Shown here: positions 33,387 to 54,185 of the stretch, piece after piece
How positions within the stretch are numbered: the first letter of the stretch is position 1
Layout: the number at the start of each line of letters is the position of its first letter
DNA from: Daucus carota subsp. sativus
Lineage: Eukaryota > Streptophyta > Magnoliopsida > Apiales > Apiaceae
Length of the DNA stretch: 64,000 nt
Assembly: GCF_001625215.2 (NCBI RefSeq)
Contig: NC_030386.2
Location: 22,786,545 to 22,850,544 of the forward strand
Reading direction: 5' to 3'
Program-made: the position numbers and the translations under genes
Notes under the pieces: model-generated
Database searches by the model: none
What the model was told of the DNA's origin: nothing
What the model saw: the letters and a program-made list of their open reading frames with translations, nothing else

Positions 33387-33669
33387 CTCCCTCCATCTCT
33401 TCATACTTTTCAACTGAATGTAATTAAATACAACTTTCATGTGACAAATATATATACTTTCATATATATGAAAAATATATACTATCAATAGAATCTTGTG
33501 ATTCAGGAGGAATGTCAATCTCTAGTTTGCAGACGAAGAAACATGGTTCCCCTTCTAGTAGATTAAATATATTTTCTAATAATACAATTTCCAAAATTTT
33601 ATTAATCATATCGTTCAAATTTTGATTAATTTGACTACAGACATAACTGCTGTTTTGGGGCGACGGGAG
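33387..33669. mobile_element. Stowaway-like MITE, unit 2 copy
   Basis: Counterpart of 17931-18209, with a small internal insertion (an extra ATAT near 33465). The left flank TA has become TG. Confidence 0.7.
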
Positions 33670-34509
33670 TACTATCTTTGAGTTGGAAGGTAGTGATCCA
33701 GTACTTCTCAGGAACTAAAACTTCAGCAGCAGCAGTTAAATCATCACTACTTGATTGCGGCAACTACATCTCGTGCACGAAACAGAGACTAAGATGCACA
33801 AGTTTTTCCTGGTCATCAGGGTTGCGGGACAATCTTACCCAGTAACTCAAAAATGACAATACAGTGAGTGCATCAGCTATACGGTGGGATAGGCTCACAG
33901 CAATGGCCCCAATCCTCCGCAAGAGAAATGATTCAGCTAAACAGCCATTATATTAGGAGAAGACGACACATCATGCCATATCATACAGTCCCTCATTCCC
34001 ATTTTAATAGTTATGTTTGTGAAAATAAAATGTCCCATAATATTTGTCATTTTTTTTTCAATAAAACTTTTATACTGTTTTCAAAGTTGACTATCATCAA
34101 CTCACGCAATTTTCAAAAATTATTAAGCAAATAACTATGAAATTCTAATAAAATGACTGAAAACTTGGTTATATTCATGTGTAATTTATGTAATTTTAAC
34201 GATCACAACAATAACAAGACATCACATTTAATATTTCTTGATATGTGTGAAATTTGCAAAAAAGACTATTAATATGGGAGGGATGGAGGGAGTGTATACC
34301 ATGCTAAAAGAGATTACTGCAACCATCTTTTTTCATCCTTGACAGGAGTTCTTTCCAGAATTTCAGATTGTAAGAATCAGCTACCACAGGCGATCATTTA
34401 GGATGATTATATTGTTTGAGCTTAAGGGTGTGGTAGAAGCCGGTTTTATATTAGTTTTTGATGTTTAGATTCCATGTAGCTGCCTTCTGCTTAGTCCCCT
34501 GATCGTCAT
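33670..34509 (-). pseudogene. Diverged BAHD relic K2
   Basis: Second copy of the K relic. The middle piece is at 33670-33955 and the N-terminal piece ends at 34509, with a Stowaway element between them. It has an additional stop in the MQLP region (CAACTACAT in place of CAACTGCAT). No C-terminal half. Confidence 0.85.
33986..34294. mobile_element. Stowaway MITE inside BAHD relic K2
   Basis: Same position, ends and TA flanks as the element at 18526-18836. Confidence 0.85.
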
Positions 34510-36288
34510 ATAGCTATTTGTATTTGAATTTATTAGATTATAGATTTAGAGAAAGGGATCAAGTGATTTCACTGCAATTTATAACGGAACATTCAAGGGT
34601 GACTATCACTGACTAAATGCCACATATTGTTAATTCTGCTATTATTAAGCTTGGGGACGGGGTGGATAAGAAAATATGAAATATTTGCGGCCTCACTTTA
34701 ACCAAAAGTCTGGTTTCCACAAACAATAATTGATTGATACTTCATATTTATTTTAGCTTATGATATTCAAATAATACTCTTAGCCGATTATTTTGGAATA
34801 ATACCTTTAGTTGATAATATTGGAATGATATTGGAATAACACCCTTAGCTGATAATATTGGAATAATATCCTTACAGACATTAGAATGATATTGGAACAA
34901 TACCTTTAGATGACGATATTGATATTATTTTGGTTCTAATAATTTTATTACTGATATGATTGCTAAAAGTTGTATATACTATTATAAAGTTGCAAAAGCA
35001 TTTTTATACACAAAATACAATTGTTAGTTTAGTTGCATTTAGCTTTGCAAGAATATATGTTACAAGGTGCATTAGTTACACAGTCCCCCCTTCCCAATTT
35101 ATTTGTCTTGTTTGACTTTTTGTTGTCAAATTGATCAAATTTTGACTAATAATTAGTAATTATTATTACATAATCTTGAAAATAAAAAAAATACATTTTA
35201 AAATAGAATAGAAATAGATTCAAGTAATATGTTTTTTGTAATTTTTAAAATTGTTTAATATATGTAAATTACAGTCAAAGTTTGGTCGATTTGACCATAA
35301 AAAGTCAAACAAAACAAATAAATTGGGACAGAGGGAGTATATGATTGCAAAGTTGCAAACTCTATTTTTGTAAAAAAAATTCAGAAAATAATATAACACC
35401 AAATACAATAATTGTGGGCTAAATTGGACCATAAAATTTGCACAACTTGTAACACATCATTTGGATAGTAATGACTATATTCATTAAATATAATATGTTT
35501 AAATATAATATCCGACAAATAATGAGATTATCTATATATTCTATTTGGGTCTTATATGTCAAAATATCTCACTTGACCCACCATCTTATCGGGTACTCAT
35601 TTAAACCACTATGAACCAAATATATATCATTTTACCCACATCACTGTTCATACCTCTTTACTTATTCAATTATCAAAAATCAACTTTTGTTCTTTTACTA
35701 CAAAACCACTTCAAATATATACCTTTATAATTGTCTCTAGTATTTATCAAAATAATATGGAAATTCTTAAAGCAACATATCTGGGGTGATCACATAAATA
35801 TATATTTATAGCTTTATTTTTTTAACTACATAGCTACGGTTTATAGTGGCTTAAATGATTCCCCGATAAGATGGATGGGCAAATGAAATATTTTGACGTA
35901 ACGGGTGGCGATATAAAACCCTTTTCTATTTTGATGACATGCTAACTCATTTTTTAAGTAATGGTTTTTCATGATTAAGAGAGTTGCTATAGATTACATT
36001 CAAAATGGATTAAGTGACTTTACTGCACCTTGTGGCAAACATTTAAGGGTGACTAAGTACCCGGAATTGTTTCTGCTATTATTAAGTTTCGGCACAGTAG
36101 ATAAGAAAATTTGAATCACAAATATCACATTTATTTGCTGCCTCACAATTTTACCAAAAGTCTGGTTTCCAGAAATAATTATTGATTGATACTTCAAAAT
36201 TTGTTCTAGCCGATGGATATTGAAATAATACCCTTAGCCGATGATATTGGAACAATACCAGGTTATTTTCAACAAGAGAGAGCTAGAC
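34510..36288. other. Repeated intergenic part of array unit 2
   Basis: Matches 19052-20834. Includes the TATTGGAATAATA repeats (34750-34930) and a Stowaway-like element (35079-35337). No gene seen. Confidence 0.7.
35079..35337. mobile_element. Stowaway-like MITE, unit 2 copy
   Basis: Counterpart of 19622-19881, with TA on both sides and a right end ACAGAGGGAG. Confidence 0.7.
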
Positions 36289-36733
36289 TTAGAAAGAAGC
36301 ATAGGCAAGCAGATCTTTGTCAGCTAGGAAATTTTTCATGTCTTGTTCTTCCAGTGCAACGAGGGTGTTTATACCATCTCCACTCGGTGTATCCATCATA
36401 ACTGCTGTATTAGACACACCTACATCCACAACTGAAGCTTTTACTGGCTTTCCCCACCCGAAATCCATCTCATCATATAATGGGAAATTACAAATGCTGC
36501 TCACGAAATAAGGCTTCTGATCAGTATTTGCATATTTGAGCATCAGTGCCAGGTTTTTTCCGACCAAACTTTTTGATCCTCTAAGTTGCATCTTCCCTTT
36601 CTTCATTTGGGCTATCAATGTACTTAATCTTGTCTCATTCAGCGTATATATATGTTGGAACGTCATTCAGAGCAATTAGATTTCCCACACTTTTTTTTGG
36701 CAATGGAGGATCAATGAGAGGGCGCATGTTTAC
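36289..36733 (-). pseudogene. BAHD fragment E (C-terminal third)
   Basis: Minus-strand BAHD sequence from the MRPLIDPP region to the normal stop, with DFGWG intact. A 4-bp insertion (ATAT in TATATATATGTTGG) puts the first part out of frame near 36650. It stops exactly where TGTTGGAAGTTTG begins (36734). It is the counterpart of copy D (offset 15.45 kb). Confidence 0.85.
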
Positions 36734-37425
36734 TGTTGGAAGTTTGTCATTTTTAGCATAAATTTGAGTGAGGCTCGGCTACGTTTTCGTGGCGGGTTAT
36801 GCTTGGATTATGTTCTCCTCCGAGAGAGCTTTACAATGCACGTTTATTCACTCAAAACGACTAAGGAATGGATGAGTTATGATGATCCAAAGTTGCTTCC
36901 TTGGTAGTGGAAAATTGGAGAGTAAACCTTGAGTCCCACGCACATTGATTCAATAAAGAGCCTTTAAAGGCTTTATATACCAAGACACTTTGGTAGTGTC
37001 TAAATGTGTTACTACAGTTAAACCTCTTTAAAATAATACCCCTCGGACCGGGAAAAAATATTACTTTACCGAATTTATTATTTTATCGATATAATAATAT
37101 TTTATTACTTTATCGATAAAGTAATATTTTATTATTTTAATGAATTTCTATGTGTTTATAAATTATAATTCATTATTTTTAAAAACAAGAATTAGTCAAA
37201 TGCAATGCATTTGATATAAAATTACTTTTATAATAATTAATCAGAAAACTAAATTCATGCATGCACCAGATAGAGTATACATGTTACAACATTAGCAAAA
37301 CATACCGGAGTTATTTATCCCTTACATAAAATCAAGGATGAGGTTAATTTTTGCCTTGGTGGAAAGAAGAAACAAGCTACTGTAGATTCATATTTTAAAA
37401 AGGACTGAATTTTGAATTCATATAC

Positions 37426-37482
<57 letters not shown>

Positions 37483-37830
37483 TTCATGAATTATTACTTT
37501 ACATATCACCTGGGCCTTTAATGAATTTTTGATTTTTTATTATCTTATGCTTTTAGCGAAAATATTACTTTACGACATTGGCCCAAGTTGGGACCGACAA
37601 AATTTATTACTTAAGCGAGGTTATTACTTTATAGGATATTATTTAATCGAGGTTTAACTGTAGTGTGTTGCTCAACCACCTACCTGTGCGCAGGAGCGGT
37701 GCAAATTGGGGGATTTCGAGGCAAATTTCGTGGCTTCGCAAGCCTCGGCCTTTTCCAGGACACGAATGCAGCAAAATCTGGGCCCGAAGAATTACGTACT
37801 AGTTCATTATAGATTAGGGTTCTACACACA
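36734..37830. mobile_element. Probable solo LTR separating BAHD halves E and F
   Basis: Starts TGTTGGAAGTTTGTC and ends near CTACACACA, with copia-like LTR termini and no internal polyprotein. It carries a pogo/Emigrant-like insertion. The flanks do not show a matching 5-bp duplication. The BAHD sequence on its two sides overlaps in gene position rather than being continuous, so it is not a simple insertion into one gene. Confidence 0.55.
37015..37660. mobile_element. pogo/Emigrant-like element
   Basis: The TIR CAGTTAAACCTC is repeated inverted at the right end (GAGGTTTAACTG), with TA target duplications at 37013-37014 and 37661-37662. The ends match the pattern of Emigrant/pogo-type plant elements. 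It contains an (AT)n tract (about 37430-37475). At 37321-37408 on the + strand is a short reading frame ending GKKKQATVDSYFKKD, like the C-terminus of pogo-type transposases, so this may be an internally deleted copy. Confidence 0.75.
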
Positions 37831-39058
37831 CGAAAATACACAAATGCTGCTAATGGGATAAAGCTTGTGATTAGTTTTTGCATATTTGTCCACCAGTACC
37901 ATGTTTTCTTTTCCGACCAAACTTTTTGTTCCTCTAAGCTGCATCTTCCATTTCTTCATGTGGGCTATCAATGTATTTAATCTTGTCTCATTCATCGTAG
38001 TGGTTGGAACGTGATTTACAGCAATTAGATTTCCCACACTTGTTCTTGGCAATGGAGGATCAATGAGAGGACGCATGTTTACTGAATGCATCAGCACAGA
38101 TTTCCCACACATGTTTTTGGCAATGGAGGATCCATGAGAGGACGCATGTTTACTGAATGCATCAGTACAGATTTAGTATAGGCCCTGGAGTTTGATGCAG
38201 TTGCGGCTCTTACGGCACACCTGTAAAGGAGTGCAGTCACAAGCTCATTCCGTGTATAACTTTGATTTACACCATCTTGTCTGTCTTGCATTTCCACCTC
38301 AGCCTTGAGTTTGCTATCTTTGAGTGGGGAAACACTATCTCCTTAGTGATCCAAAACTTTTCAGGATGCGAATATTCAATGGCGGTTAAATCATCATTAC
38401 ATGATGGTGGTGATGATTGCTGCAGCTCGTGCAGAAAAGTGGGACTAAGATGCACAAGTTTTCTTCATTGTCAGGGTTGCGGCACAAGTTTGCCCAATAA
38501 CTCAGGAATGACACCAAGGTGAGAGCATCAGCAATACAGTGGGAGAGGCTCGCAGCTAGAGCTATTCCTCCGCAAGAGAAATGGTTTAGCTGAACAGCCA
38601 TTAAATTACGAGAAGACAACAATTTTCCCCATATGGTACCAGGGGGTACCAGGGGGACAGAGATGACCATAACCATCTTCTTCATCCATGGTTGGAGTTT
38701 TTTCCACAATTTCTGATAATTTACATGCTACCTGGGCCTCAAAGAATTCAATGCCTTGGTCATTGTATTCTACGCGTGATCCTGAAGAACTTAGCTTTTC
38801 CCGCAAATGGATAGTACTTGGAAAGTGTATTGGATAGAGAGTTCTTGAGTAGATTTGGTATGGTGGCTTTATGAGCTAGTGATTGTGGATTGGAATAGAA
38901 GAATATCATAGGCGTGTAAGGACCGGGCAACCCTAGATCATGTAAAGGAAGAATGTAAGGCTTGAGGTTCAAGGGGTGGGAGAGGCGGGTTTAATGTTAG
39001 TTTTTGATTTTGAGACTACATGCAAATGCGTTCTAGTTAGTCCCCTCATCATTATCAT
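37831..39058 (-). pseudogene. BAHD pseudogene F (N-terminal five-sixths, several frameshifts)
   Basis: BAHD from the start codon (39058) to the SSICNF region. The breaks are: a 1-bp loss in the SPTPLN region (about 38975), a 1-bp gain at about 38798 (AGCTTTTCCC for AGCTTTCCC), a 11-bp tandem duplication around 38637-38658, a 1-bp loss near 38460, another near 38312, and a 71-bp tandem duplication at 38033-38174. HCIAD (HXXXD) is still readable. DFGWG and the C-terminus are missing beyond the solo LTR. Confidence 0.9.
38033..38174. repeat. 71-bp tandem duplication inside BAHD pseudogene F
   Basis: Copies 38033-38103 and 38104-38174, both beginning CCCACAC and ending ACAGATTT, cover the MRPLIDPPLP region. 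Since 71 is not a multiple of three, it shifts the frame. Confidence 0.9.
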
Positions 39059-40775
39059 GCTGCCTGTTGTGGAGAATACAAGCTCTATTGCAAGGAATGG
39101 GGGTAGAAATGCATCTCCATTGTTCCTATATTATATACCTGTTTAGCTGTCTATGCTTGAATAAAATAATGCAATTTAGATTATTAGCCTGTAGCATGCA
39201 TCTATGGAAAATTGTTGTACGGACAACTGAATTGATTGCTATACTATTTGAACCAAATTAGTACTCACTCCATCTCCTAATACTTTTCAACTGAATATAA
39301 TTAAATGCAACTTTCGTGTGACAAATATGCTTTCATATCAAAAATAAATACTATTGAAAGAGTCTTGTGATTAAAAGGGCATTAAACATTGAGTGTAATA
39401 ACGAACATCTAATGTATTCTAATATATTCTTTAGGGTTCAAAAGAACGAGATGTAAGTGAAAAGGAAGTAAAGTTATGTAACTTTCACTCCTGTTTGTGC
39501 TCCCGAATTTTTTGAAAGAAGGAAAGCAAGTGAAAATGGATGCAAATATAGCATACTTCACTCCAAAAGTTTCACTCCAAATGGGGGATGAAAGTGAAAG
39601 CACATTTGCTTTCACTTTTATTCTCTTCTAAAAAAACTCGGGAGCGGGGCGGGGTTAAAAAGAACGAGCAAACTTTACATTCAATAGTAAATGTCAAGTT
39701 TACCGTTTGTTATATACCGTTTTTTGACTTCATACCGGTAATTAGGGTTAAAAGGAATATTTGTGAAACTTGGAGGGTTGAATCAGCCGAGTTAAAACAT
39801 CGAGCCTACATCGGTACAACTTCCCAAACTTTGAGGGTTAAAAGCGCATTAATTAAGCCTAGTTTTTGATGTTGAGATTCCATGTAGCTGCCTTCTGGTT
39901 AGTCCCCTGATCTTCATATAGCTTGTTGTGGAGAATTTAACCTGGAATTGGAATACCAGCAATGCTCTAATTCTCTAGTTTTAAGAAATGGCCTAAAGTC
40001 TCAAAAAATCAAATATATCTACATTGGTGCTGACAGTTCAAAAAATCAAAAGATTCATTTATTTTTGATTAATGGGACACAATTTTAAATTTGCAGAGCT
40101 TAATATTTGCCAACCAGAATATCTTTAGTAAAACTGATCAGACTAGTTAGAGAAACTTTTGCATCAAAGGGAGATTTTTAACTACAAAAACCATTTCGAG
40201 TACCTTTATAATTGTCTCTAGTATTTATAAAAATAATATGGAAAATTTTGAAGCAACATAGCGAGGGTGATCACATAAATATATATTTATAGGTATATTT
40301 TTTTTTTAACTACATAGCTTGGATTTTATAGTGGCTTAAATGATTTGCCGATGAGATGAATGGGTCAAGTGAGATATTTTGACGTAATGGGTGGCGATAT
40401 AAAACCCTTTTCTATTTTGACATGCTAACTCATTTTTTAAGTAATGGTTTTTGATGATTAATGGAGTTGCTCTTAGATTATAGAGTACATTCAAAATGGA
40501 TTAAGTGATTTTACTGAACCTTGTAGCAAACATTTAAGGGTGACTATAAGTACCAGGAATTGTTTCTGCTATTATTAAGTTTTGGCACAGTAGATAAGAA
40601 AATATGAATCACAAATATCACATTTATTTGCTGCCTCACTTTTACCAAAAGTCAGGTCTCCAGAAATAATTATTGATTGATACTTCAAATTTATTCTAGC
40701 CGAGGATATTGAAATAATACCCTTAGCCCATGATATTGGAACAATACCAGGTTATTTTGAACAAGAGAGCTAGAC
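39059..40775. other. Array flank between BAHD F and BAHD 3
   Basis: Non-coding. It holds the former promoter of F (TATA-like at 39130) and the counterpart of 30485-31843. Compared with that copy it has an additional stretch around 39690-39800. No gene seen. Confidence 0.65.
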
Positions 40776-42113
40776 TTAGAAAGAAGCATAGGCAAGCAGA
40801 TCTTTATCAGCTAGGAAATATTTCATGTCTTGTTCTTCCAGTCCAATGATGGTGTTTATACCATCTCCACTCGGTGTATCCATCAAAACTGCTGAATTAT
40901 ACAGACCTATATCCACAAGTGCAGCTTTTACCGGCCTTCCCCACCCGAAATCCATCTCATCATATAACGGGAAATTACAAATGCTGCTCACGAAAAAAGG
41001 CTTGTGATCAGTTTTTGCATATTCCAAAATCTGTGCCAGCAGGTTTTTTCCGACCAAACTTTTTGTTCCTCTAAGCTGCATCTTCCCTTTCTTCATTTGG
41101 GCTATCAATGTATTTAATCTTGTCTCATTCAGGGTAGTTGTTGGAACTTCATTCAGAGCTTGTAGATTTCCCACACTTGTTTTTGGCAATGGAGGATCAA
41201 GGAGAGGGCGCATGTTTACTGCCTGCATCAGTACAGATTTAGTATAGGCCCCGGAGTTTGATGCAGTTGCGGCTCCTACAGCGCACCTGTAAAGGAGTGC
41301 AGTCACAAGCTCATTCCGTGTATAACTTTGATTTACACCATCTTGTCTGTCTTGCATTTCCACCTCAGCCTTGAGTTTCGCTATCTTTGAGTTGGGAAAC
41401 ATTATCTCGGTAGTGATCCAAAACTTTTCAGGATGCGAATATTCAAAGGCAGTTAAATCATCATTACATGATGGTGGTGATGATTGCTGCAGCTCGTTTA
41501 AAAAAGTGGGACTAAGATGCACAAGTTTTTCTTCATTGTCAGGGTCGCGGCAAAGGCTTGCCCAGTAACTTAGGAATGACAACAAAGTGAGAGCATCAGC
41601 AATACAGTGGGAGAGGCTCACAGCTACAGCTATTCCTCCGCAAGAGAAATGGTTTAGTTGAACAGCCATTAAATTACCAGAGGACAACAAAGGTCCCCAT
41701 ATGGTACCAGGGGGACAGAGATGACCATAACCATCTTCTTCATCCCTGGTAGGAGTTTTTTCCAGAATTTCTGATAATTTACATGCTACCTGGGCCTCAA
41801 AGAATTCAATGCCTTGGTCATTGTATTCTATGCGTGATCCTGAAGAACTTAGCTTTCCCGCAAATGGATAGTACTTGGAAAGTGTATTGGATAGAGAGTT
41901 CTTGAGTAGATTTGGTATGGTGGCTTTATGAGCTAGTGATTGTGGATTGGAATAGAAGAATATCATAGGCGTGTAAGGACCGGGCAGCCCTAGATCATTT
42001 AAAGGAAGAATGTAAGGCTTGAGGTTCAAGGGCGTGGGAGAGGCCGGTTTAATGTTGGTTTTTGATTTTGAGACTAGATGCAAATGCCTTCTAATTAGTC
42101 CCCTCATTATCAT
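40776..42113 (-). CDS. BAHD acyltransferase, copy 3 (intact)
   Basis: 445 aa in one exon. HXXXD is HCIAD at 169-173, DFGWG at 388-392. The first half and the last 80 residues follow copy 2, whereas the middle segment (SVLMQAVNMRPLLDPPLPK..LQALNEVPTTTLNETR) is closer to copies D and E (MRAVNMRPL, IALNDVPT, TLNETR). This patchwork suggests gene conversion between array members. Promoter and start are as in copies 1 and 2. The substrate is unknown. Confidence 0.93.
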   Translation of the reverse strand: MIMRGLIRRHLHLVSKSKTNIKPASPTPLNLKPYILPLNDLGLPGPYTPMIFFYSNPQSLAHKATIPNLLKNSLSNTLSKYYPFAGKLSSSGSRIEYNDQGIEFFEAQVACKLSEILEKTPTRDEEDGYGHLCPPGTIWGPLLSSGNLMAVQLNHFSCGGIAVAVSLSHCIADALTLLSFLSYWASLCRDPDNEEKLVHLSPTFLNELQQSSPPSCNDDLTAFEYSHPEKFWITTEIMFPNSKIAKLKAEVEMQDRQDGVNQSYTRNELVTALLYRCAVGAATASNSGAYTKSVLMQAVNMRPLLDPPLPKTSVGNLQALNEVPTTTLNETRLNTLIAQMKKGKMQLRGTKSLVGKNLLAQILEYAKTDHKPFFVSSICNFPLYDEMDFGWGRPVKAALVDIGLYNSAVLMDTPSGDGINTIIGLEEQDMKYFLADKDLLAYASF

Positions 42114-42184
42114 GCTGCCAGTTGTGGAGAATATAAGCTCTATTGCAAGGAATGAGGGTAGAAATGCATCTCCATTGTTCCTGT

Positions 42185-42192
42185 ATTATATA
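42185..42192 (-). promoter_or_regulatory. TATA box of BAHD copy 3
   Basis: TATATAAT on the minus strand at the same distance from the ATG as in copies 1 and 2. Confidence 0.6.
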
Positions 42193-42318
42193 CCCGTTTA
42201 GCTGTCTATGCTTGAATAAAATAATGCAATTTAGATTATTAGCCTGTAGCATGCATCTATGGAAAATAGTTGAAAGGACAACTGAATTGATTGCTATATT
42301 ATTTGAATGAAATTAGCA

Positions 42319-42593
42319 CTCCCTCCATCTCTTAATACTTTTCAACTGGATGTAATTAAATGCAACTTTCGTGTGACAAATATACTTTCATATCAAAAAT
42401 AAATACTATCAAAAGAATCTTGTGATTCAGGAGGAATGTCAATCTCTAGTTTGCAGACGAAGAAACATGGTTCTCCTTCTAGTAGATTAAATATATTTTC
42501 TAATAATACAATCTCCAAAATTTTATTAATCATATCGTTCAAATTTTGATCAATTTGACTACAGACATAACTGCTGTTTTGGGGCGACGGGAG
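42319..42593. mobile_element. Stowaway-like MITE, unit 3 copy
   Basis: Counterpart of 17931-18209 and 33387-33669, starting CTCCCTCCATCTCTTAATAC and ending CGACGGGAG. Confidence 0.7.
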
Positions 42594-43431
42594 TACTATC
42601 TTTGAGTTGGGAAGTAGTGATCCAGTACTTCTCAGGAACTAAAACTTTAGCAGCGGCAGTTAAATCATCACTACTTGATTGCGGCAACTGCATCTCGTGC
42701 ACGAAACAGAGACTAAGATGCACAAGTTTTTCCTGGTCATCAGGGTTGTGGGACAATCTTACCCAGTAACTTAAAAATGACAATACAGTGAGTGCATCAG
42801 CCATACGGTGGAATAGGCTCACAGCAATGGCCCCAATCCTCCGCAAGAGAAATGATTCAGCTAAACAGCCATTATATTAGGAGAAGACGACACATCATGC
42901 CATATCATACAGTCCCTCGTTCCCATTTTGATAGTTTTGTTTGTGAAAATAAAATCTCCCATAATATTTGTCATTTTTTTTCAATACAACTTTTATACTG
43001 TTTTCAAAGTTGACTATCATCAACTCACGCAATTTTCAAAAATTATTAAGCAAATAACTATGAAATTCTAATAAAATGACTGAAAACTTGTTTATATTCA
43101 TGTGTAATTTATGCAATTTTAACGATCACAACAATAACAAGACATCACATTTAATATTTCTTGATATGTGTGAAATTTGCAAAAAGAAAGATTATTAATA
43201 TGGGAGGGAGGGAGTATATACCATGTTAAAAGAGATGACTATAACCATCTTTTTTCATCCTTGACAGGAGTTCTTTCCAGAATTTCAGATTGTGAGAATC
43301 AGCCACCACATGCGATCATTTAGGATGATTATATTGTTTGAGCTTAAGGGTGTGGTAGAAGCCGGTTTTATATTAGTTTTTGATGTTGAGATCCTATGTA
43401 GCTGCCTTCTGGTTAGGCCCCTGATCGTCAT
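42594..43431 (-). pseudogene. Diverged BAHD relic K3
   Basis: Third copy of the K relic. It is the best preserved at the N-terminus (MTIRGLTRRQLHRISTSKTN, from 43431), and its middle piece has HRMAD. It is interrupted by the Stowaway element at 42910-43214 and lacks the C-terminal half. Confidence 0.85.
42910..43214. mobile_element. Stowaway MITE inside BAHD relic K3
   Basis: Same ends and location as in K1 and K2, with TA flanks. Confidence 0.8.
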
Positions 43432-44831
43432 ATAGCTTGTTGGGGAGAATTTAACCTGGACTTGGAATACCAGCAATCAAATGCTCTAATTCTCTAGTTT
43501 TAAGAAATGGTCTAAAGTCTCAAAAAATCAAATATATCTACATTGGTGCTGACAGTCCAAAAAATCAAAAGATTCATTTATTTTTGATTAATGGGACACA
43601 ATTTAAAATTTGCAGAGCTTAACATTTGCCAACCAGAATATCTTTAGTAAAACTGATCACACTAGTTAAAGAAAGTTTTCATCAAAGCGAGATTTTCAAG
43701 ATGTCATATTAGAGTAAATATTGAATAATTTTTTTAAGAATTACAGTAGTTTCAGTATTAAATAAAGACTAATCACAGTCTCTCTTTGATGCAAAAGTTT
43801 CTTTAACTAGTCTGATCAGTTTTTCTAAACATATTCTGGTTGGCAAATATTAAGCTCTGCAAATTTCACTTTAATTTATTTAAAAGTCCATAACACTTCA
43901 CAAAATACAATACTACACAGTACCATAATCAAGATTGGCACGTCTAATTTGCATGCTTAAGTTTAGCTATTTGTATTTGAAGATATTAGATTATAGATTT
44001 AGAGAAAGGGATCAAGTGATTTTACTGCCGTTTATAACGGAACATTCTCAAGGGTGACTATCACCGACTAAATACCACATATTGTTAATTCTGCTATTAT
44101 TAAGTTTGGGGACCGGGTGGATAAGAAAATATGAAAAAATTGCTGCCTCACTTTAACCAAAAGTCTGGTTTTCACAAACAATAATTGATTGATACTTCAT
44201 ATTTATTTTAACTTATGATTTTCAAATAATACTCTTAGCCGATTATTTTGGAATAATACCTTTAGTTGATAATATTGGAATGATATTGGAATAATACCCT
44301 TAGCTGATGATATTGGAATAATATCCTTAACTGATGACATTAGAATGATATTGGAATAATACCGTTGTATGATGATATTGAAATAATACATGGATTTTTT
44401 CTAATAAGGATTGTGACCACCATAATTGATATTATTTTGATTTTTATGTTGAGATTCCATGTTGCTGCCTTCTGGTTAGTCCCCTGATCTTCATATAGCT
44501 TGTTGTGGAGAATTTAACCTGGAATTGGAATACCAGCAATCGACTGCTCTAATTCTCTAGTTTTAAGAAATGGTCTCAAGTCTCAAAAATCAAATATATC
44601 TACATTGGTGCTGACAGTCCAAAAAATCAAAGGATTCATTTATTTTGATTAATGGGAAACATTTTCAAATTTGCAGAGCTTAATATTTGCCAACCAGAAT
44701 ATTGTTAGAAAACTGATCAGACTAGTTAAAGAAACTTTGGCATCAAAGGGAGATTTTAAGATGTCATATTAGAGTAAATATCGAATAATTTTTTAAGAAT
44801 TACAGTAGTTTCAGAAGTAAATAAAGACTAA
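43432..44831. other. Intergenic part of unit 3
   Basis: Non-coding mosaic of array flank pieces. A segment shared with 31020-31260 appears here three times, once inverted. TATTGGAATAATA repeats lie at 44220-44390, and an N-terminal scrap of the K-type relic at about 44440-44510. No gene seen. Confidence 0.6.
43608..43864. repeat. Inverted repeat, two arms of about 85 bp
   Basis: 43608-43693 (ATTTGCAGAGCTTAACATTT...) returns as reverse complement at 43780-43864, with about 86 bp between them. Similarity is about 90%. The left arm is in the orientation found elsewhere in the array (31150, 40090, 44670); the right arm is the inverted copy. Confidence 0.85.
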
Positions 44832-45129
44832 TCACAATCTCCCCTTGAAAAAACTGATGCACAATTGTTTCAGTGGCTTCCTATCTGGTTCGCATGCTTC
44901 CATCCTTGCTTTCACGTCAGTAGCATAATCCTCCTGCATTTATACATTACTTATATTAGTTTATCATAATCTATATATAACTATGAATCGGGCCTTCGGG
45001 TGCAGGAAGAAAGATAGAAAGTGATTACATACTGCAGTACCATGCATGTAAGTTGCAGTATTAGTATAGAAGTATATACATAAAGTTGTTATACAGGGAT
45101 GCATTCAAACTTGTAGTATACCGAGATTA
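44832..45129 (-). pseudogene. GGP-like 3' fragment (exon 4, intron 3, end of exon 3)
   Basis: 44933-44832 encodes the full last exon of the GGP-like gene at 60797-63398 with two changes (EDYATDV for EEYATDV, and RKPLKQL for RKALKQL) and the same stop. Then follow intron 3 sequence, with some insertion, and the last 8 bases of exon 3. At 45126-45129 similarity switches to DRP3 intron 15. It is the truncated right end of the first copy of the duplicated block. Confidence 0.9.
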
Positions 45130-45508
45130 TATTTGAGATTTCTTCATGCCATCTCAGAAAAGTCGAAGAAATTATAGTTCTCCCTAGCTAACAGAGTTTT
45201 ATTATTAAAATATTAGAGATTAAGATGTCTTCCAGCTTTTAGTGGTCCTCTTACTCAAGTTTTTCCCGAAAAAACAATTGGACCCCCTTTGTATACAATA
45301 TATTCCAGCATCTGATCATGTTTCTTATGTATAGCTGCATTTAAATTCTCTTTTTGTTGATTTTAAGGGCTGATGGGTGTATAATTGCTGTGAATATTAA
45401 GGAAGTGCAACTGGATCTTCCAGGGGGATTTCGTCAATTTTTGGTGGATCAGATAATGGTGTAGCAGCCGAAGAAAATCTCACAAGCAAGCCATCTAATG
45501 AACCAATT
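45130..45508 (+). pseudogene. Partial DRP3 copy, left piece (intron 15 to exon 16)
   Basis: Matches DRP3 from 10799 to about 11180: the end of intron 15 and the first two-thirds of exon 16 (SSWGISSIF region changed to a RGISSIFG-like reading). It is cut in exon 16 by the copia element; the target duplication CAATT lies at 45504-45508. Confidence 0.92.
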
Positions 45509-45736
45509 TATTGGTAGTATAGATAATACAGCTGTACATAAAGTAGTGGGTAGTTCAGATGACAGCTAAGCACAACAAACTTTCCCTCCAAGCTAGTGCC
45601 TAGTTAGTTAGTCTTTCCTGTATATATAGCTAGCATAGTGTAGCATTTGTACTCACTCTGTTCTTTTGTATAGTTTTCATTTTCTGCAATACAAGATAGT
45701 TCTTCTCTCTCTTAGCATAAATATAGAAATATAACA
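45509..45736 (+). repeat. 5' LTR of copia element
   Basis: 228 bp, TATTGGTAGTATAG to ATATAACA. It contains TGTATATATAGC as a likely TATA region (about 45620). Confidence 0.95.
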
Positions 45737-45748
45737 TGGTATCAGAGC
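45737..45748 (+). other. Primer-binding site (initiator Met tRNA type)
   Basis: TGGTATCAGAGC immediately after the 5' LTR, complementary to the 3' end of plant initiator methionine tRNA. Confidence 0.93.
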
Positions 45749-46016
45749 TTGCTGAAGGTTCCATGGCGGATATTACTTGATCTTCGAGATTCTCACTCGT
45801 TTTCTCTCGCACATCAGGTGTTTTCTCATTCGATCTATAGTTCGTATAGTTTGTTGACAAGTTTTGTACATAAACTTCGTTCTCTATTGTCAATTTCATT
45901 ACGTATCTGTTAGTTCTCGCCATTGTTGCTTTGTGCGAATTGATCCTACATAATCTGTGTTCATTTCATCTGATTGATACGATTTCTGTTCTAAATCTAT
46001 CACAAACCCTAGTTGT

Positions 46017-46984
46017 TTGCTTATTCAAACCCTAACTGTTCCAATCATGACTCTCCAACCGAATCAAGATCCGTCGAGTGTATATTACATTCATCCTTCT
46101 GATGCGTCTACTACGCAACTTGTTTCTGTCAAATTTAGCGGTACTGGTTTCCATAACTGGACACGATCGATGATGCTCACACTCTCTGCCAAGAATAAGC
46201 TTGGATTTGTCAATGGTACTGTCTCTGCACCTGATGCCACAACAAATGAGTATAAACACTGGGAACGCTGTAATGATCTGGTCATTTCCTGGCTCATCTT
46301 CAATCTTGATGAGACAATTGCCAAAAGTGTCTCGTTTATGAAGACAGCATCTGAGATCTGGAATGAACTGGAAGAGCGCTATGGATATGCCTCTGCGGCA
46401 CAAACTTATGTTCTGGAACAACAATTGTCTGAAATTACTCAAGGAAATGATACTGTCTCAGCATTCTTCACCAAAATCAAGACTCTCTGGGATGGCCTGG
46501 CTGATGTTAGTCCTCTGCCTGTGTGCACTTGCCAGAAATGTACCTGCAACATAACACAGAGATTGTTTCAGAAGCAACAAGAACAAAAGGTTCTTCAGTT
46601 CATGATGAAGTTATCAGACTCCTTTGCCACAGTCAGGGGAAATGTGCTCATGATGCAGCCATTACCAAATATTGCTCAAACCTACAGGTTGTTTGCTCAA
46701 GAAGAGAGGCATAAGGAAATCTCTAATGTGACTAATCAGACTGAGGCCATGGCTTTCTATGCGGACAAAAGGAAGTTTAATAATCAAGGCAGATTCAATG
46801 GAGCTCCTACTGGAAACAGGGGAAACTGGCCTAACAATAACAATCCTAATGCCAAGAAGCCAAACAAACCAAGCTACTACTGCACTCACTGCAAGATTCC
46901 TGGTCACGGTGTGGAAAGGTGTTTCAAAATCCATGGTTTTCCCCCAGGTTTCCAGGCTAGACAACAAGAGAAGAAGGTTGCTGC
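46017..46984 (+). CDS. Copia gag region
   Basis: Capsid-type protein. It has an N-terminal domain with FSGTGFHNWTRSM and a helical region (WNELEERYG...VLEQQLSEI...VSAFFTKIKTLWDGL). It ends with a CCHC zinc knuckle at residues 289-302 counted from the ATG at 46017 (C289, C292, H297, C302). A second ATG 11 codons on (MTLQPNQDP) is an equally plausible start. Before the MITE insertion the frame would have run on into protease and pol. Now it passes a few codons into the MITE and stops at 47022-47024. Confidence 0.9.
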
Positions 46985-47470
46985 TAGGGATGGCAATCGG
47001 GTCGGATCGGGTCGGGTTTCATGAAATCCATATCCAATCCGTTATATTTCGGATCGGATCGGGTTCGGGTTTGGATATTAAAATGTAAAATCCAAATCCA
47101 ATCCGTCGGGTTTTTTCGGGTTTCGGATCGGATTCGGGTTTCAACCGGATATCTTTAAAAAAAATTAAAAATTATAAACATGTCTGAACTATGATAATTA
47201 AGTATTTTTTTTCAAAATTAAGATTATTGGATTGGATTCTATTGGTTTAAATTAGAATAATATAAACTTAAACCATATTAATTTTCATTATTACCAATAT
47301 ACAATATATTTTATACAATATATTATTAATGAAGTATTTGTCTTAAATAGAAACCCTTATTCCTTTAACCTAGTCTATTGATATTGAGAGTATTATATTA
47401 CATTCATCCAAATAATTAAATATAAATATGTTATATATATATAGACACACACACACACATTCATATTAAA

Positions 47471-47520
<50 letters not shown>

Positions 47521-47746
47521 CGGGTTTTTTCCGGGTTTCGGGTTTGGATCGGGTTCGGATAGGATTTCGGGTTTCGGATCGGGTTTCGGATCGGTAGAGG
47601 TCATATCCATATCCAAATCCAAAAAATTTCGGGTACAAAAATCAAATCCATATCCAAATCCAAATCCAAAAATTCGGGTTCGGTATATCCAAAAATTCGG
47701 ATTTCGGATCGGGTATCCGTCGGATCAGATTATTTTGCCATCCCTA
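46985..47746. mobile_element. hAT-type MITE inside copia gag-pol
   Basis: TIR TAGGGATGGCAA at the left and inverted TTGCCATCCCTA at the right, with an exact 8-bp target duplication GTTGCTGC (46977-46984 and 47747-47754). 762 bp, rich in CGGATCGGGT and its complement, with an (AT)n tract at about 47475-47513. No transposase. It separates gag from the rest of the polyprotein. Confidence 0.96.
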
Positions 47747-50700
47747 GTTGCTGCTCTTGCACAACAGAATGATGCTGATACTGTCCAAACTGGCAATGAC
47801 ACTGGTCCAAGCATGTCTCAAGAACAATACAATCAAATGATGGCTTACTTTCACCAGTCAAAGAATGTTCCTGATGACACTATGGATGATGATAAGCATG
47901 CACTACTAGCAGGTATATGTCTTTTATCCTCTGGTAGTCATGACTGGCTAATAGATAGTGGAGCAACTCACCATATTTGCCCTAATCTTGATTGTTTTGA
48001 CTGGTATGAGCCTTCCAAAGAAAAGGATAATTTCATTATTATTCCTGATGGAACAGAAGCAAAAGTTGCTCATGTAGGATCAGTACAATTAAATAATGAC
48101 ATCAGCCTAAAGAATGTCTTACATGTGCCTGACTTCAAGTTCAAACTGTTATCTGTCAAGAGACTTTGCACAGATTTAAACTGCAGCATTAGTTTTACTA
48201 ATAATCACTGTTATATTCAGGGCCTTTCTCAGAACAGGCCTCAGATTCTACTTGGTAACTTGATCAATGGCCTGTACAGTGTACCAGCTCACAATTTACT
48301 GGAACAATCTAATGCTACACTGCAGGCTTCTTGTTTTGGTGCTGTTCAAGATACTAAGATGTGGCATCTCAGGATGGGACACCTACCTTTTCCTCAAATG
48401 AAGATTTTACTATCAGGTTTGCCAATTAGTGAATGTCAAAGCTCAACTATATGTCAGATATGTCATGCTGCTAAACAGACCAAGAAACCTTTTACTTCTA
48501 GTCATATTAAGTCTGTATCTGCTTTTGAGTTACTTCATATTGATCTGTGGGGCCCATATAAGACTAAGAGTACTTCTGGCTGTAATCAGTTCTTGACTAT
48601 AGTTGATGACTTTACTAGGTTTACTTGGATACATTTACTCAAGCTTAAATCTGAAGTACCTGTTATTCTGGCAAATTTTATTGAATATGTTCACACACAA
48701 TTCAAGAAAAGTGTATTGTGTATCAGAAGTGATAATGCTAAAGAATTCTGTGAAGGTGGTTCTAAGTTGTTATTCCAGTCCAAAGGAATACAACATCAGA
48801 CAAGCTGTGCTTACACTCCACGACAGAATGGTGTTGTGGAGAGAAAACACAGACATTTACTAGAAACTGCTAGGGCTGTATTCTTACAAGCCAAATTGCC
48901 TGATAAATTCTGGGGAGAATCTGTTATGTGTGCTGCTTATTTGATCAATAGAATGCCACTAAAGTCTATTGCTTATCAAACACCTTATTCCAAACTCTAC
49001 AACACAGCTCCCTCACTTGAGCATCTTAAAACATTTGGTTGCCTTTGTTATGTTTCCACCCTTGATGTTAATAGAGGTAAGTTTCATCCTAGAGCAGAAG
49101 CTCATGTTTTCTTGGGATATTCATCTTCCCAGAAGGGATATAGAGTCTATGATCTAAAACACCATTCTGTTTCAGTCTCCAGAAATGTAGTGTTTTATGA
49201 GTCAGTTTTTCCATTTCATGTGATTTCCTCCACACAATCTGGTGTATCAGATTTTCTCAATGAGATTTTCTTACCTAAAGTTACCACACCAACTGTTGAT
49301 TCTGATGTTCCTACACCAGTTACTGTTGTTCAAACTGGTGAACCTACACATTCACATGATTCACATGAATTATCTCAACAAATCCATACACCAGTCAATA
49401 CACCAAGTCATTCACCAGATAGTTCCACTAATGATAGCTCTCATTTAGTGGATTATAGTGATTCTAATTTTCAGAGTCCACCTCAGCCTATTACCAGAAT
49501 GTCTACAAGAACAAGACAACCACCATCATATCTAACTGATTACCACTGTCAACTGGCCAAATATACCACACCACTTCCAGAACATTGGTGCAATATAGTT
49601 CCCAGTACATGCCTTCCTGAGTCCTGTATTAGCCTGCTTGCTTCCCAATCTGTTATTACTGAACCTTCATGTTATGAAGAGGCTGCTACACATCCTTTAT
49701 GGATTGAGGCTATGAATAAAGAGTTGAAAGCACTTGAGGCAAACCAAACCTGGGAGTTAGTTGATTTACCAGCTGGAAAAAAACCCATTGGATGCAGATG
49801 GGTTTTTAAAGTCAAACTTAATGCAGATGGAACATTAGAAAGGTGTAAAGCACGTTTGGTAGCTAAAGGGTTTACACAGAAGTTTGGTGTAGATTACCTT
49901 GAGACTTTTTCTCCTGTAGTTAAGATGAGTACTGTAAGATCTATTATTGCTCTAGCTGCTAACAGGAAATGGACTATTCACCAACTGGACGTGAATAATG
50001 CTTTCTTACATGGTGATCTAAATGAAGAAGTTTACATGTATCCTCCTCCAGGCTTTGATAATCCCCTTAACAAAGTTTGCAGACTAAAAAAGTCACTATT
50101 TGGACTAAAGCAGGCCTCTAGGCAGTGGTCAGCTAAGCTAGCAGTAGAACTGGTAGACAATGGGTTTACACAGTCAAAAAATGACTATAGTTTGTTCATT
50201 CACAGAGATGATCCCCATATTACATACATGACTGTATATGTAGATGATATTATCATCACTGGTAGCAATTCTGCACACATTCAGCTTATGAAACAACATT
50301 TGGATACTGTTTTCAGTATTAAAGACTTGGGAGTCCTGCATTATTTTCTTGGAATGGAAATTTCTTATCTGCCTGAGGGTGTTGTTGTTAGTCAAAAGAA
50401 GTTTACCAAGGAATTGCTTGATTACTGTCCTGATACATTGCCTACCAGAGCTGTTACTCCTCTTCCTCTACATCTCAAGTTAAGTAGCTCTGGCAGTCCA
50501 CCTTTGTCTGATCCAGAAGTGTATAGGTCTCTACTTGGTAAGCTCAATTTTTTGACAAATACACGGCCTGATCTGAGTTACACAGTACAGCTATTAATCC
50601 AGTTTATGCATGCCCCCAACACTACTCATTATGAAGCTCTTCTACATACTCTTAGTTATGTAAAACATACTGCTGGACAAGGGATTTTACTACAAGGTGC

Positions 50701-51274
50701 TGATAATCTTACTTTACAAGCATATTCTGATTCTGATTGGGCAGCATGCCCTGATTCTCGTCGATCAGTAACAAGCTATGTGTTAATGTTTGGTAATTCT
50801 CCTATCGTTTGGAAGTCCAAGAAGCAATCCACAGTGTCTAAATCTAGCTCAGAAGCAGAGTATAGGGCCATGGCATCTGCTGCTTCTGAGGTGACTTGGG
50901 CTGTGCGACTCCTACAAGAACTGGGTGTTACTAATTTGTGTCATGTTACTCTGCATTGTGATAATCAGTCGGCAATTCATATTGCCAAGAACCCAGTGTT
51001 TCATGAGCGTACGAAACACATAGAAGTGGACTGTCATTTCACTCGTGACAAGGTGTTTGAAGGGCTTATTCAACTTACTTATCTTCCTACCAAGCATCAG
51101 TTAGCAGACATCTTTACAAAGACAGTTCCTTCTCCTCAGCTGCAATATTTATCTTCCAAGTTGGGAATGTTTGACACTCAACAACAGTGTTCACATTCCA
51201 ACTTGAGGGAGGCTATTGGTAGTATAGATAATACAGCTGTACATAAAGTAGTGGGTAGTTCAGATGACAGCTAA
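47747..51274 (+). CDS. Copia pol region (protease, integrase, reverse transcriptase, RNase H)
   Basis: One open frame of about 1175 codons. The frame also continues upstream into the last bases of the MITE, where an accidental ATG at 47735 lies. Numbering from that ATG: protease motif DSGA at 74-77; integrase zinc region from about 209; integrase core D270, D333, E369, with the canonical 35-residue gap; reverse transcriptase with YVDD at 835-838; RNase H from about 990 (SDSDWAACPDSRRS to SSSEAEYRAM). All catalytic residues I checked are present. The last 20 residues and the stop are encoded inside the 3' LTR. Confidence 0.95.
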   Translation, partial: VAALAQQNDADTVQTGNDTGPSMSQEQYNQMMAYFHQSKNVPDDTMDDDKHALLAGICLLSSGSHDWLIDSGATHHICPNLDCFDWYEPSKEKDNFIIIPDGTEAKVAHVGSVQLNNDISLKNVLHVPDFKFKLLSVKRLCTDLNCSISFTNNHCYIQGLSQNRPQILLGNLINGLYSVPAHNLLEQSNATLQASCFGAVQDTKMWHLRMGHLPFPQMKILLSGLPISECQSSTICQICHAAKQTKKPFTSSHIKSVSAFELLHIDLWGPYKTKSTSGCNQFLTIVDDFTRFTWIHLLKLKSEVPVILANFIEYVHTQFKKSVLCIRSDNAKEFCEGGSKLLFQSKGIQHQTSCAYTPRQNGVVERKHRHLLETARAVFLQAKLPDKFWGESVMCAAYLINRMPLKSIAYQTPYSKLYNTAPSLEHLKTFGCLCYVSTLDVNRGKFHPRAEAHVFLGYSSSQKGYRVYDLKHHSVSVSRNVVFYESVFPFHVISSTQSGVSDFLNEIFLPKVTTPTVDSDVPTPVTVVQTGEPTHSHDSHELSQQIHTPVNTPSHSPDSSTNDSSHLVDYSDSNFQSPPQPITRMSTRTRQPPSYLTDYHCQLAKYTTPLPEHWCNIVPSTCLPESCISLLASQSVITEPSCYEEAATHPLWIEAMNKELKALEANQTWELVDLPAGKKPIGCRWVFKVKLNADGTLERCKARLVAKGFTQKFGVDYLETFSPVVKMSTVRSIIALAANRKWTIHQLDVNNAFLHGDLNEEVYMYPPPGFDNPLNKVCRLKKSLFGLKQASRQWSAKLAVELVDNGFTQSKNDYSLFIHRDDPHITYMTVYVDDIIITGSNSAHIQLMKQHLDTVFSIKDLGVLHYFLGMEISYLPEGVVVSQKKFTKELLDYCPDTLPTRAVTPLPLHLKLSSSGSPPLSDPEVYRSLLGKLNFLTNTRPDLSYTVQLLIQFMHAPNTTHYEALLHTLSYVKHTAGQGILLQGADNLTLQAYSDSDWAACPDSRRSVTSYVLMFGNSPIVWKSKKQSTVSKSSSEAEYRAMASAASEVTWAVRLLQELGVTNLCHVTLHCDNQSAIHIAKNPVFHERTKHIEVDCHFTRDKVFEGLIQLTYLPTKHQLADIFTKTVPSPQLQYLSSKLGMFDTQQQCSHSNLREAIGSIDNTAVHKVVGSSDDS
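51200..51213 (+). other. Polypurine tract of copia element
   Basis: AACTTGAGGGAGGC directly before the 3' LTR. It is also part of the pol coding frame. Confidence 0.8.
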
Positions 51275-51441
51275 GCACAACAAACTTTCCCTCCAAGCTA
51301 GTGCCTAGTTAGTTAGTCTTTCCTGTATATATAGCTAGCATAGTGTAGCATTTGTACTCACTCTGTTCTTTTGTATAGTTTTCATTTTCTGCAATGCAAG
51401 ATAGTTCTTCTCTCTCTTAGCATAAATATAGAAATATAACA
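51214..51441 (+). repeat. 3' LTR of copia element
   Basis: 228 bp, one base different from the 5' LTR. The pol stop codon lies 59-61 bp into it. Confidence 0.95.
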
Positions 51442-52210
51442 CAATTCAAACAATTAAGCCTTCTTTCTCAATGATCCATCTCAGAGAGGTGCATATGGAT
51501 TATTATTATATCACATATGGAATTTGGATAGTAATAACTGAACGATTATATATCTTTCATTCGTCAAAATATGCAAATAATCCCTTCCATAGGGCAAGTA
51601 AAAAGGGCGTTATTTTCATATAATTTTTCCCGAGCATTTAACAAGGTAACAACTACTGTTGGAAAATTCTGGGTATTAACGTTTCAACTGTTTTCTTGCA
51701 GACATTGGATGAATCACCGGTTGATGCAGATGCAGTTGAAAGGGGCTTTAGCTTGAACGCTGACCCAACAGGCCTGCCAAGGATTCACGGTCTACCATCA
51801 TCATCTATTTATACAACAAGTGGTGGTTCAACGGAATCCTGCACAGCTTCTCCCAAGAACCCAAGGTCTCGTGAATCATCCCATTCTGGAGAACCCAAAT
51901 TATTTGCCAGCTCTGTTCAGCTCCTCGCTTAAGTGGTACTTCTAATTAATCTTGTAAATCTGCTTGATTGGTAGGTGAAATAATATTTGCTGGGAACGGG
52001 CTACTTTGTTGATTACTTTTCCATGACCATGTATTTCCAGCATCTTCAATATAGTTTGCTGAATATTGCATTGTTGCAGAGGAACTCTTTATAAAATAAT
52101 AGGAGTAGTTCACTCGAGTTTAATGAAAATTTATACAAGTTGGCAACTAGTTTATAACAATTGTAACTACCTGCTTTGATTATTGTATTTTGAAATCCTT
52201 GAAGGATGAG
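51442..52210 (+). pseudogene. Partial DRP3 copy, right piece (end of exon 16, exon 20, 3' UTR)
   Basis: Begins with the second CAATT and the end of exon 16 ([10 protein letters not shown]-like). It then jumps across deletions that removed exons 17-19. Exon 20 is at about 51702-51932: [21 protein letters not shown]..., close to the parent but ending in a different C-terminus because the last 30 codons are lost. About 270 bp of the parent's 3' region follow. It lacks the GTPase and effector domains and is not a functional gene. Confidence 0.92.
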
Positions 52211-52672: not shown

Positions 52673-52788
52673 TGAGTGTTAAAAGGCTTTTGCTCCAAAG
52701 GCCTCCTGGCTCCACAACCTTATTAAAATATCATAAAAATAAAATAAGTTGTACAAAAAAATACCAAGCTATTTTCAACACAAGACTC

Positions 52789-54111
52789 TTAGAAAGAAGC
52801 ATAGGCAAGCAGATCTTTATCAGCTAGGAAATTTTTCATGTCTTGTTCTTCCAGTCCAACGATGGCGTTTATACCATCTCCACTCGGTGTATCCATCATA
52901 ATTGCGAAATTAGACATAGGTGTGTCCACAAATGCAGCTTTTACTGGCTTCCCCCACCCGAAATCCATCTCATTATACAATGGGAAATTACAAATGCTGC
53001 TCATTAAATAAAGCTTGTGATTAGTTTTTGCATATTTGTCCAGCAATGCCAAGTACTCTGTTCCGACCAAGCTTTTTCTTCCTCTAAGCTGCATCTTCCC
53101 TTTCTTCATTTGGGCTATCAATGTATTTAATCCTGTCTCATTCATCGTAGTCGTTGGAACGTGATTCATAGCAATTAGATTTCCCACACTTGTTTTCGGC
53201 AATGGAGGATCAAGGAGAGGACGCATGTTTACTGTATGCATCAGTACAGATTTAGTATAGGCCCCGGAGTTTGATGCAGTGGCGGCTCCTACAGCGCACC
53301 TGTAAAGGAATGCAGTCACAAGCTCATTCCGCGTATAATTTTGATTTAGGCCATCTCGTCTGTCTTGCCTTTCCACCTCTGCCTTGAGTTTCGCTATCTT
53401 TGAGTTGGGAAACACTATCTCAGTAGTGATCCAAAATTTTTCAGGAATCGGAAATTCAATGGAATAAAAATCATCATCACATGATGCTGCTGATTGCAAA
53501 AAAGTGGGACTAAGAAGCACAAGTTTTTCTTCATTGTCAGGGTCGCGGCACAAGTTTGCCCAATAACTCAGGAATGACAAGAAAGTGAGAGCATCACCAA
53601 TAGAGTGGGAGAGGCTCACAGCAATAGCTATTCCTCCGCAAGAGAAATAATTTAGTTGAACCGCCATTAAATTACGAGAAGACGACAAATTTCCCCATAT
53701 GGTACCAGGGGGACAGAGATGACCATAACCATCTTCTTCATCCCTGGTTGGAGTTTTTTCCAGAACTTCTGATAATTTACATGCTACATGGGCATCAAAG
53801 AAATCAATGCCTTGTTCATTGTATTCTACGCGTGATCCTGAAGAACTTAGCTTTCCCGCAAGGGGATAGTACTTGGAAAGTGTACTGGACAGAGAGTTCT
53901 TGAGTTGATTTTGTATGGGGGCTTTATTAGCTAGTGCTTGTGGATTGGAATAGAAGAATATTATAGGCGTGTAAGGACCAGCCACCCCTAGATCATGTAA
54001 AGGAAGAATGTAAGGCTTGAGTTTCAAGGGTGTGGGAGAGACTGGTTTAATGTTAGTTTTAGATTTTGAGATTACATGGAAATGCCTTCTAGTTAGTCCC
54101 CTCATTATCAT
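52789..54111 (-). CDS. BAHD acyltransferase, copy 4 (intact, more diverged)
   Basis: 440 aa in one exon. HXXXD is HSIGD at 169-173 and DFGWG is at 383-387. It differs from copies 1-3 throughout (for instance LGVAGPYTPI for LGLPGPYTPM, NYFSCGG for NHFSCGG, RKSLVGTEYLALLDKYAKTNHKLYLMSSICNF). It lacks the Ser/Pro stretch before SCDDDF. It lies just after the truncated DRP3 copy, the same relation that copy 1 has to full DRP3, which supports block duplication. The N-terminus is again basic. Substrate unknown. Confidence 0.93.
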   Translation of the reverse strand: MIMRGLTRRHFHVISKSKTNIKPVSPTPLKLKPYILPLHDLGVAGPYTPIIFFYSNPQALANKAPIQNQLKNSLSSTLSKYYPLAGKLSSSGSRVEYNEQGIDFFDAHVACKLSEVLEKTPTRDEEDGYGHLCPPGTIWGNLSSSRNLMAVQLNYFSCGGIAIAVSLSHSIGDALTFLSFLSYWANLCRDPDNEEKLVLLSPTFLQSAASCDDDFYSIEFPIPEKFWITTEIVFPNSKIAKLKAEVERQDRRDGLNQNYTRNELVTAFLYRCAVGAATASNSGAYTKSVLMHTVNMRPLLDPPLPKTSVGNLIAMNHVPTTTMNETGLNTLIAQMKKGKMQLRGRKSLVGTEYLALLDKYAKTNHKLYLMSSICNFPLYNEMDFGWGKPVKAAFVDTPMSNFAIMMDTPSGDGINAIVGLEEQDMKNFLADKDLLAYASF

Positions 54112-54177
54112 GCTGCTGTGGAGAATATAAGCTTTATTGCAAGGAACTGGCTAGAAATTCATCTCCATTGATCCTAT

Positions 54178-54185
54178 ATTATATA
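54178..54185 (-). promoter_or_regulatory. TATA box of BAHD copy 4
   Basis: TATATAAT on the minus strand, about 67 nt before the ATG, in a leader related to those of copies 1-3. Confidence 0.55.

Follow-up and report, generated by a model that had tools for sequence, protein, structure and literature searches.

A putative old tandem-duplication junction joining GGP-like exon 3 to DRP3 intron 15 in a BAHD gene array of carrot

The window, that is, the whole stretch of 64,000 nucleotides of Daucus carota subsp. sativus that was analyzed (contig NC_030386.2, positions 22,786,545 to 22,850,544), contained no N and carried a dynamin gene, which we take to be DRP3 rather than another dynamin, on the forward strand, followed by an array of BAHD genes and a GGP-like gene on the reverse strand, with DRP3 and GGP converging on the array (Table 1). 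The parent DRP3 gene encoded the Pfam domains Dynamin_N, Dynamin_M, and GED. The exon 1 region of the parent GGP-like gene matched gamma-glutamyl peptidase 1 (PDB 9k7l, E = 2.4e-34, phmmer), and a Pfam search of the same region gave no match at 0.001; exons 1-4 of this gene were all present, as assessed exon by exon rather than for the spliced frame as a whole. The genome searches covered 441,086,747 bases in 11 contigs, with very common words being skipped. Exon 1 of DRP3 and exon 1 of GGP were each found at one place in this locus, with the nearest long relatives elsewhere at 53% and 80%, respectively. The 14 genome matches listed for DRP3 exon 1 comprised the gene of the window, nine sequences at 38-53%, three short pieces of 24 aa at 83%, and another short piece of 46 aa at 57%; those other than the window gene look like other dynamins.

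Table 1. Coordinates of the genes, gene fragments, and junction features within the window.
Feature	Positions	Strand	Description
Parent DRP3 gene	3311..13099	+	20 exons, 832 aa, one terminal stop; breakpoint partner 10795
Left-block BAHD array	15785..44387	-	Full-length ORFs 16400-17725, 31844-33181, and 40776-42113, plus pseudogenes and fragments
Truncated GGP-like 3' end	44756..45129	-	3' flank, exon 4 (~44832-44939), intron 3, last 4-8 bp of exon 3
Truncated DRP3 copy, first part	45126..45508	+	Intron 15 from 10795 and most of exon 16; exon 16 by tblastn
Ty1-copia retrotransposon in exon 16 of the DRP3 copy	45509..51441	+	Pfam RVT_2, rve, copia gag
Truncated DRP3 copy, second part	51442..52209	+	End of exon 16, intron 19, part of exon 20, 3' flank
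Right-block BAHD gene adjoining the DRP3 copy	52757..54219	-	ORF 52789-54111
Probable second junction	57175..57548	.	GGP exon 4/intron 3 piece to ~57272, then DRP3-BAHD spacer
Second right-block BAHD gene adjoining GGP	59022..60598	-	388 aa from aligned start, internal gap
Parent GGP-like gene	60797..63398	-	4 modelled exons; breakpoint partner 60989-60992 in exon 3

Pfam PF02458 was assigned to one BAHD gene of the array, the BAHD motifs HxxxD and DFGWG were present in all five of the ORFs checked, and the nearest solved structure to the array proteins was that of vinorine synthase; the array genes are classed as predicted BAHD acyltransferases. Among the matches listed (98; 95 of 172 candidates scored), the nearest BAHDs outside the array were at most 60% identical, and two lay on C6, the contig of the window, approximately 26 kb to the left and 87 kb to the right of the window. 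The left-block BAHD sequence of type B had no close full counterpart in the right block, its nearest pieces there being 73% at 55145-55292 and 90% at 57095-57171, and comparison of the left and right DRP3-BAHD spacers gave no alignment above shuffles. The left array also contained a large insertion (21638-30512), in which a Transposase_28 ORF of gypsy type lay at 25044-26123.

Base-level alignment identified ATTA at 45126-45129 as common to both parents, with the tail of GGP exon 3 on its left and DRP3 intron 15 on its right. The junction reads ...CCGAG-ATTA-TATTTGAG..., the GGP parent at the breakpoint reads ...CCGAG-ATTA-AATTG..., and the DRP3 parent reads ...GGC-ATTA-TATGTGAG... (likewise from base-level alignment). 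The original prediction, in which the sequence follows GGP up to 45129 and DRP3 intron 15 from 45126 with an overlap of four bases, was thus borne out in both position and overlap, and when the parents were aligned with the copies, both arms proved to be colinear with their parents and in the same orientation. In the parent GGP gene, the last base of exon 3 was 60985, with ATTA at 60989-60992; in the 20-exon model of the parent DRP3 gene, 10795 fell in intron 15 (10395-11077). The left arm matched 60723-60944 (92.4%, 1e-87) and 60926-60996 (90.4%, 8e-21), and the right arm matched 10795-11184 (85.8%, 9e-128) and, beyond the copia insertion, 11180-11239, 12640-13016, and 13147-13454 in the self-comparison of the window, in which both arms lay far beyond chance. 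The weight of the case is carried by these two long colinear arms. A genome query with 45000-45300 returned four places, namely, its own position, GGP, and two sites in DRP3 intron 15 (10795 and, in the adjacent repeat unit, 10635), while the GGP end returned five places and the DRP3 end three; all of these were inside the window.

Four or more shared bases occurred in 2.1-2.2% of random breakpoint pairs (approximately 200,000 drawn pairs for each of two null models, set against one junction). The overlap is accordingly mild evidence for microhomology-mediated joining, and of the predicted repair by short homology, the overlap itself is present, but the route is only suggested because four shared bases arise at approximately 2% of random joins. 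Such a join could also come from homologous unequal crossing-over, if repeats in DRP3 intron 15 paired with repeats in GGP exon 3; intron 15 does hold a two-copy tandem repeat (10579-10731 and 10736-10900) at the breakpoint, and elsewhere the array has the appearance of having undergone exchange of this kind. However, the 300-bp parental breakpoint stretches were no more alike than shuffles (143 of 300 shuffles were as good in the forward and 188 of 300 in the reverse orientation), and the sequence common to both sides of the join was 4 bp only. Crossing-over at the breakpoints was rejected, as there was no long homology between the parental breakpoints, and we regard it as highly improbable. 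With respect to the two intron 15 units, the DRP3 copy differed from the first at 9 of 88 sites and from the second at 11 of 96, and the units differed from each other at 13 of 153. The two units are thus similarly near to the copy, so that only colinearity sets 10795 as the parent position, and the breakpoint may lie in the second unit or in a single unit that was doubled later, both of which fit the sequence.

The two inner copies were truncated and had changed further. The truncated GGP-like 3' end would be explained by the junction, as had been proposed for the end at 44832; the fragment, with its 3' flank, spans 44756-45129, and its splice sites were read from the sequence. Approximately 102 extra bp in its intron 3 (44961-45060), with TATTAG on both sides, are likely to represent an insertion in the fragment, because the matches to exon 3 and exon 4 lie 94 bp apart in the C1 relative of GGP. 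Within the left array, 43706-43789 was a copy of the GGP 3' flank (84.5% to 60730-60813) running into an inverted repeat, and it is perhaps another old junction. The DRP3 copy starts in intron 15 at the junction and is colinear with its parent, in agreement with the prediction; it is split by the copia element in exon 16 and has internal losses. It has no counterpart to parent 11240-12639, which holds exons 17-19 and most of the GED domain, or to parent 13017-13146, which holds the end of exon 20 with the stop codon. Judging from its sequence, the copy is a dead fragment, and the losses of exons 17-19 and of the stop codon are separate from the duplication.

The LTRs of the copia element (45509-45736 and 51214-51441) differed at 1 of 228 sites, and its 5-bp target duplication, CAATT, was found at 45504-45508 and 51442-51446; the element in the exon 16 remnant is evidently young. 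It bears on the possibility that a transposon made the join, either by alternative transposition, as in maize Ac, or by gene-fragment capture. Elements do lie nearby (the copia element, the inverted-repeat element at 57552-58880, and the 21638-30512 insertion with its transposase-like ORF), but nothing lies between the arms, and the junction stretch had no dispersed copies in a search that skips very common words. Moreover, the copia element is 380 bp away, has a target duplication of its own, and has LTRs far less diverged than the arms, and direct reading of the sequence at 45126-45129 revealed no element ends or 8-bp target duplication. A transposon origin of the join is therefore extremely unlikely.

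Outside coding sequence, the DRP3 side differed from its parent at 71 of 756 sites (9.4%) and the GGP side, including the 8-bp exon 3 tail, at 10 of 164 (6.1%; Fisher p = 0.22). With exons included, the values were 98 of 1112, with 5 sites at the copia target duplication counted twice, and 12 of 269, respectively (p = 0.017). GGP exon 4 differed at 2 of 105 sites (p = 0.008 against DRP3 non-coding sequence and p = 0.038 against DRP3 exons). If anything, it is the GGP side that looks younger; its lower divergence could reflect selection acting on the exon in the parent, conversion, or two different dates. At a rate of 6.5e-9 changes per site and year, which is not that of carrot, the divergence, of which only the order of the dates is meaningful, corresponds to approximately 7.7 million years for DRP3 non-coding sequence, 4.9 for GGP, and 0.34 for the LTRs. 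The same divergence bears on whether two separate copies were united by an error of assembly. The array is repetitive, but the arms differ from their parents by the above non-coding percentages and no other genome copies of them were listed, so both arms are real truncated copies, and an assembler would have had no cause to unite them over an overlap of 4 bp. The use of PacBio, Nanopore, and Hi-C data for the carrot DH1 v3 assembly, as given in the excerpted text of PMC10581907, also counts against such an error, which is scarcely credible here.

The right end of the block is joined to the left end of the block in the same orientation, and the order DRP3-BAHD-GGP is found on both sides; the truncated inner copies meet at one point, and the outer genes have all of their modelled exons. 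In the 10 kb on each side of the window, no copy of the block was found, the one exception being a dispersed repeat to the right. Directly visible in the sequence are the junction, the gene order, the flanks, and the decay of the inner copies. Orientation, gene order, exon-complete outer genes, truncated inner copies, and flanks without block copies all support the direct tandem duplication put forward in the original prediction, and the self-comparison likewise agreed with the DRP3-then-BAHD order that it gave for both places. We infer a single step, very probably one direct tandem duplication of the interval extending from DRP3 intron 15 through the BAHD genes to GGP exon 3. An identical final sequence is predicted by two steps, in which a larger tandem duplication with the whole of DRP3 and GGP in both copies was followed by a deletion between the inner copies, running from GGP exon 3 to DRP3 intron 15 and taking the first junction with it; two further losses are indeed observed inside the DRP3 copy. 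This course requires one extra event, however, and we consider it unlikely: no repetition of sequence from outside the block is seen, the 10 kb on either side of the window having no block copy apart from the dispersed repeat, although the deletion could have erased every trace. The single-block state was also sought in paralogous regions of the same genome, and none was found that could serve as an ancestral comparison. The GGP relatives on C1 and C5 (exon 1 at 80% and 54%, respectively) had no BAHD match and no match to DRP3 exon 16, 17, or 20 in the sequence around them (20 kb, 10 kb). The regions around these relatives share some repeats with the window.

According to the self-comparison of the window, a third GGP exon 4/intron 3 piece was present at 57175-57272. 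Further to the right, 57399-57470 matched the left spacer at 14959-15030 (79%, alignment score 65, the highest of 200 shuffles being 37), 57520-57548 matched the right spacer at 52689-52717, and 58883-58917, past the inverted-repeat element, matched 52725-52759. A genome query with 57273-57551 returned only itself and, for 72 bp, 14959-15030. The stretch 57175-57548 is probably a second tandem junction, joining GGP intron 3 to spacer, with its exact point within 57273-57398. The element at 57552-58880, which has 223-bp inverted arms (93%), lies in the spacer of the last BAHD gene. The junctions at 45129 and ~57272 correspond to parent positions 60992 and ~60911, that is, approximately 80 bp apart in exon 3 and intron 3, respectively. 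It is conceivable, though rather doubtful, that the GGP 3' end is a recurrent breakpoint used in at least two independent duplications, the interval between the convergent genes perhaps being a local hotspot that repeatedly copied a BAHD cassette. The three GGP exon 4 copies differ by 2-3 of 98 sites, which gives no order of the two junctions.

Compared with the right BAHD genes, the three full-length left genes had dS values of 0.130-0.146, and the partial left ORF at 20835 had values of 0.138-0.142. The two right genes differed from each other by dS 0.143, a value equal to the left-right ones that likewise gives no order of the two junctions. Among the three full-length left genes, dS was 0.056-0.102, and between the partial ORF and the other left BAHDs, it was 0.105-0.146, which is as far as left from right. 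Across 15 pairs of BAHD paralogues (16400-60480), dN/dS was 0.46-0.83, which suggests relaxed or diversifying evolution. In the BAHD tree (13 rows), six of the eight left rows formed one group (support 94/88), while 15785-15970 and 37840-38103, both short fragments, fell outside it. The latter joined the right gene at 59290 (support 89/93), with 18 differences in 264 sites to the right-block gene. This right-like BAHD piece of the left block lay within 37840-38174, where a direct overlap of 77 bp with the adjoining BAHD piece came after it. Neither a clade of all eight left rows (p-AU = 0.061) nor a clade of the two right genes (p-AU = 0.074) was rejected. The tree fits a clean two-block split weakly. 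The lower dS among the three full-length left genes, the group of six left rows, and the unrejected left clade favor the duplication, whereas the dS of the partial ORF, the two outlying fragments, the type B sequence, and the spacers speak against it. It would allow one duplication of a block with one BAHD gene, and an ancestral block with two or more BAHDs would be as likely; because 37840-38103 is nearest to a right-block gene, the block perhaps held two or more. The array needs events beyond one duplication, including the probable second GGP-to-spacer junction.

If the duplication occurred once, as we favor, the stretch between the two convergent genes, from DRP3 intron 15 through the BAHD gene or genes to the end of GGP exon 3, would have been copied head to tail, the four shared bases serving to connect DRP3 intron 15 with a broken end or a stalled fork in GGP exon 3. 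The presumed route would be microhomology-mediated end joining, ordinary end joining, or template switching. Since neither flank is altered by a tandem duplication, the exons of the outer DRP3 and GGP genes would have been retained, while the inner pieces, lacking 5' ends, would have decayed; the inner DRP3 piece would have lost exons 17-19 and the stop, and the copia element would have landed in its exon 16. The effect of the event would have been to double the BAHD block, any benefit of this being likewise presumed. Later exchanges would have enlarged the left array and probably produced the second GGP-spacer junction on the right.

Joins of this kind are familiar from other genomes. In the excerpted text of a survey of copy number variants in Drosophila and humans, 262 of 644 Drosophila breakpoints (41%) belonged to the microhomology class (PMC4056370), and in that of a rice survey, 14 of 27 non-colinear gene copies were ascribed to end joining because their breakpoints had microhomology or none (PMC4812662). 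As far as these excerpts go, both surveys describe the same direct join with few shared bases and without long homology, but their variants are within a species or genus, whereas the DRP3 side here has approximately 9% non-coding divergence, with later events overlaid. Tandem duplications of Drosophila yakuba, in the portion of PMC5460883 consulted, likewise have breakpoints inside genes, and chimeric genes arise there. Unlike in those chimeras, the inner fragments of the carrot locus point apart and have no 5' ends, so a fusion protein would not be expected. Reversed-ends transposition of maize Ac likewise gives tandem direct duplications in a plant, according to the excerpted PMC3744419; unlike in that system, no transposon ends or 8-bp target duplication occur at the carrot junction. 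Plant tandem BAHD clusters, as presented in part of PMC11449225, are also local clusters grown by tandem copying, and compared with the clusters described there, the breakpoint of one step is still readable here. The literature search found no paper that names this junction, which is no proof of absence.

Taken from sequence comparison, the evidence supports a tandem-duplication junction, old and decayed, within a BAHD array that is growing; the mechanism and kind of the junction are already known. Tandem copying is an ordinary route of growth for such gene families of plant chemistry, and this general picture is unchanged by the junction. The junction would serve as a base-level marker of one step in the growth of a BAHD cluster, offering a simple presence/absence test in wild relatives, and it would show a tandem copy amplifying genes of specialised metabolism while the bordering genes keep their exons.
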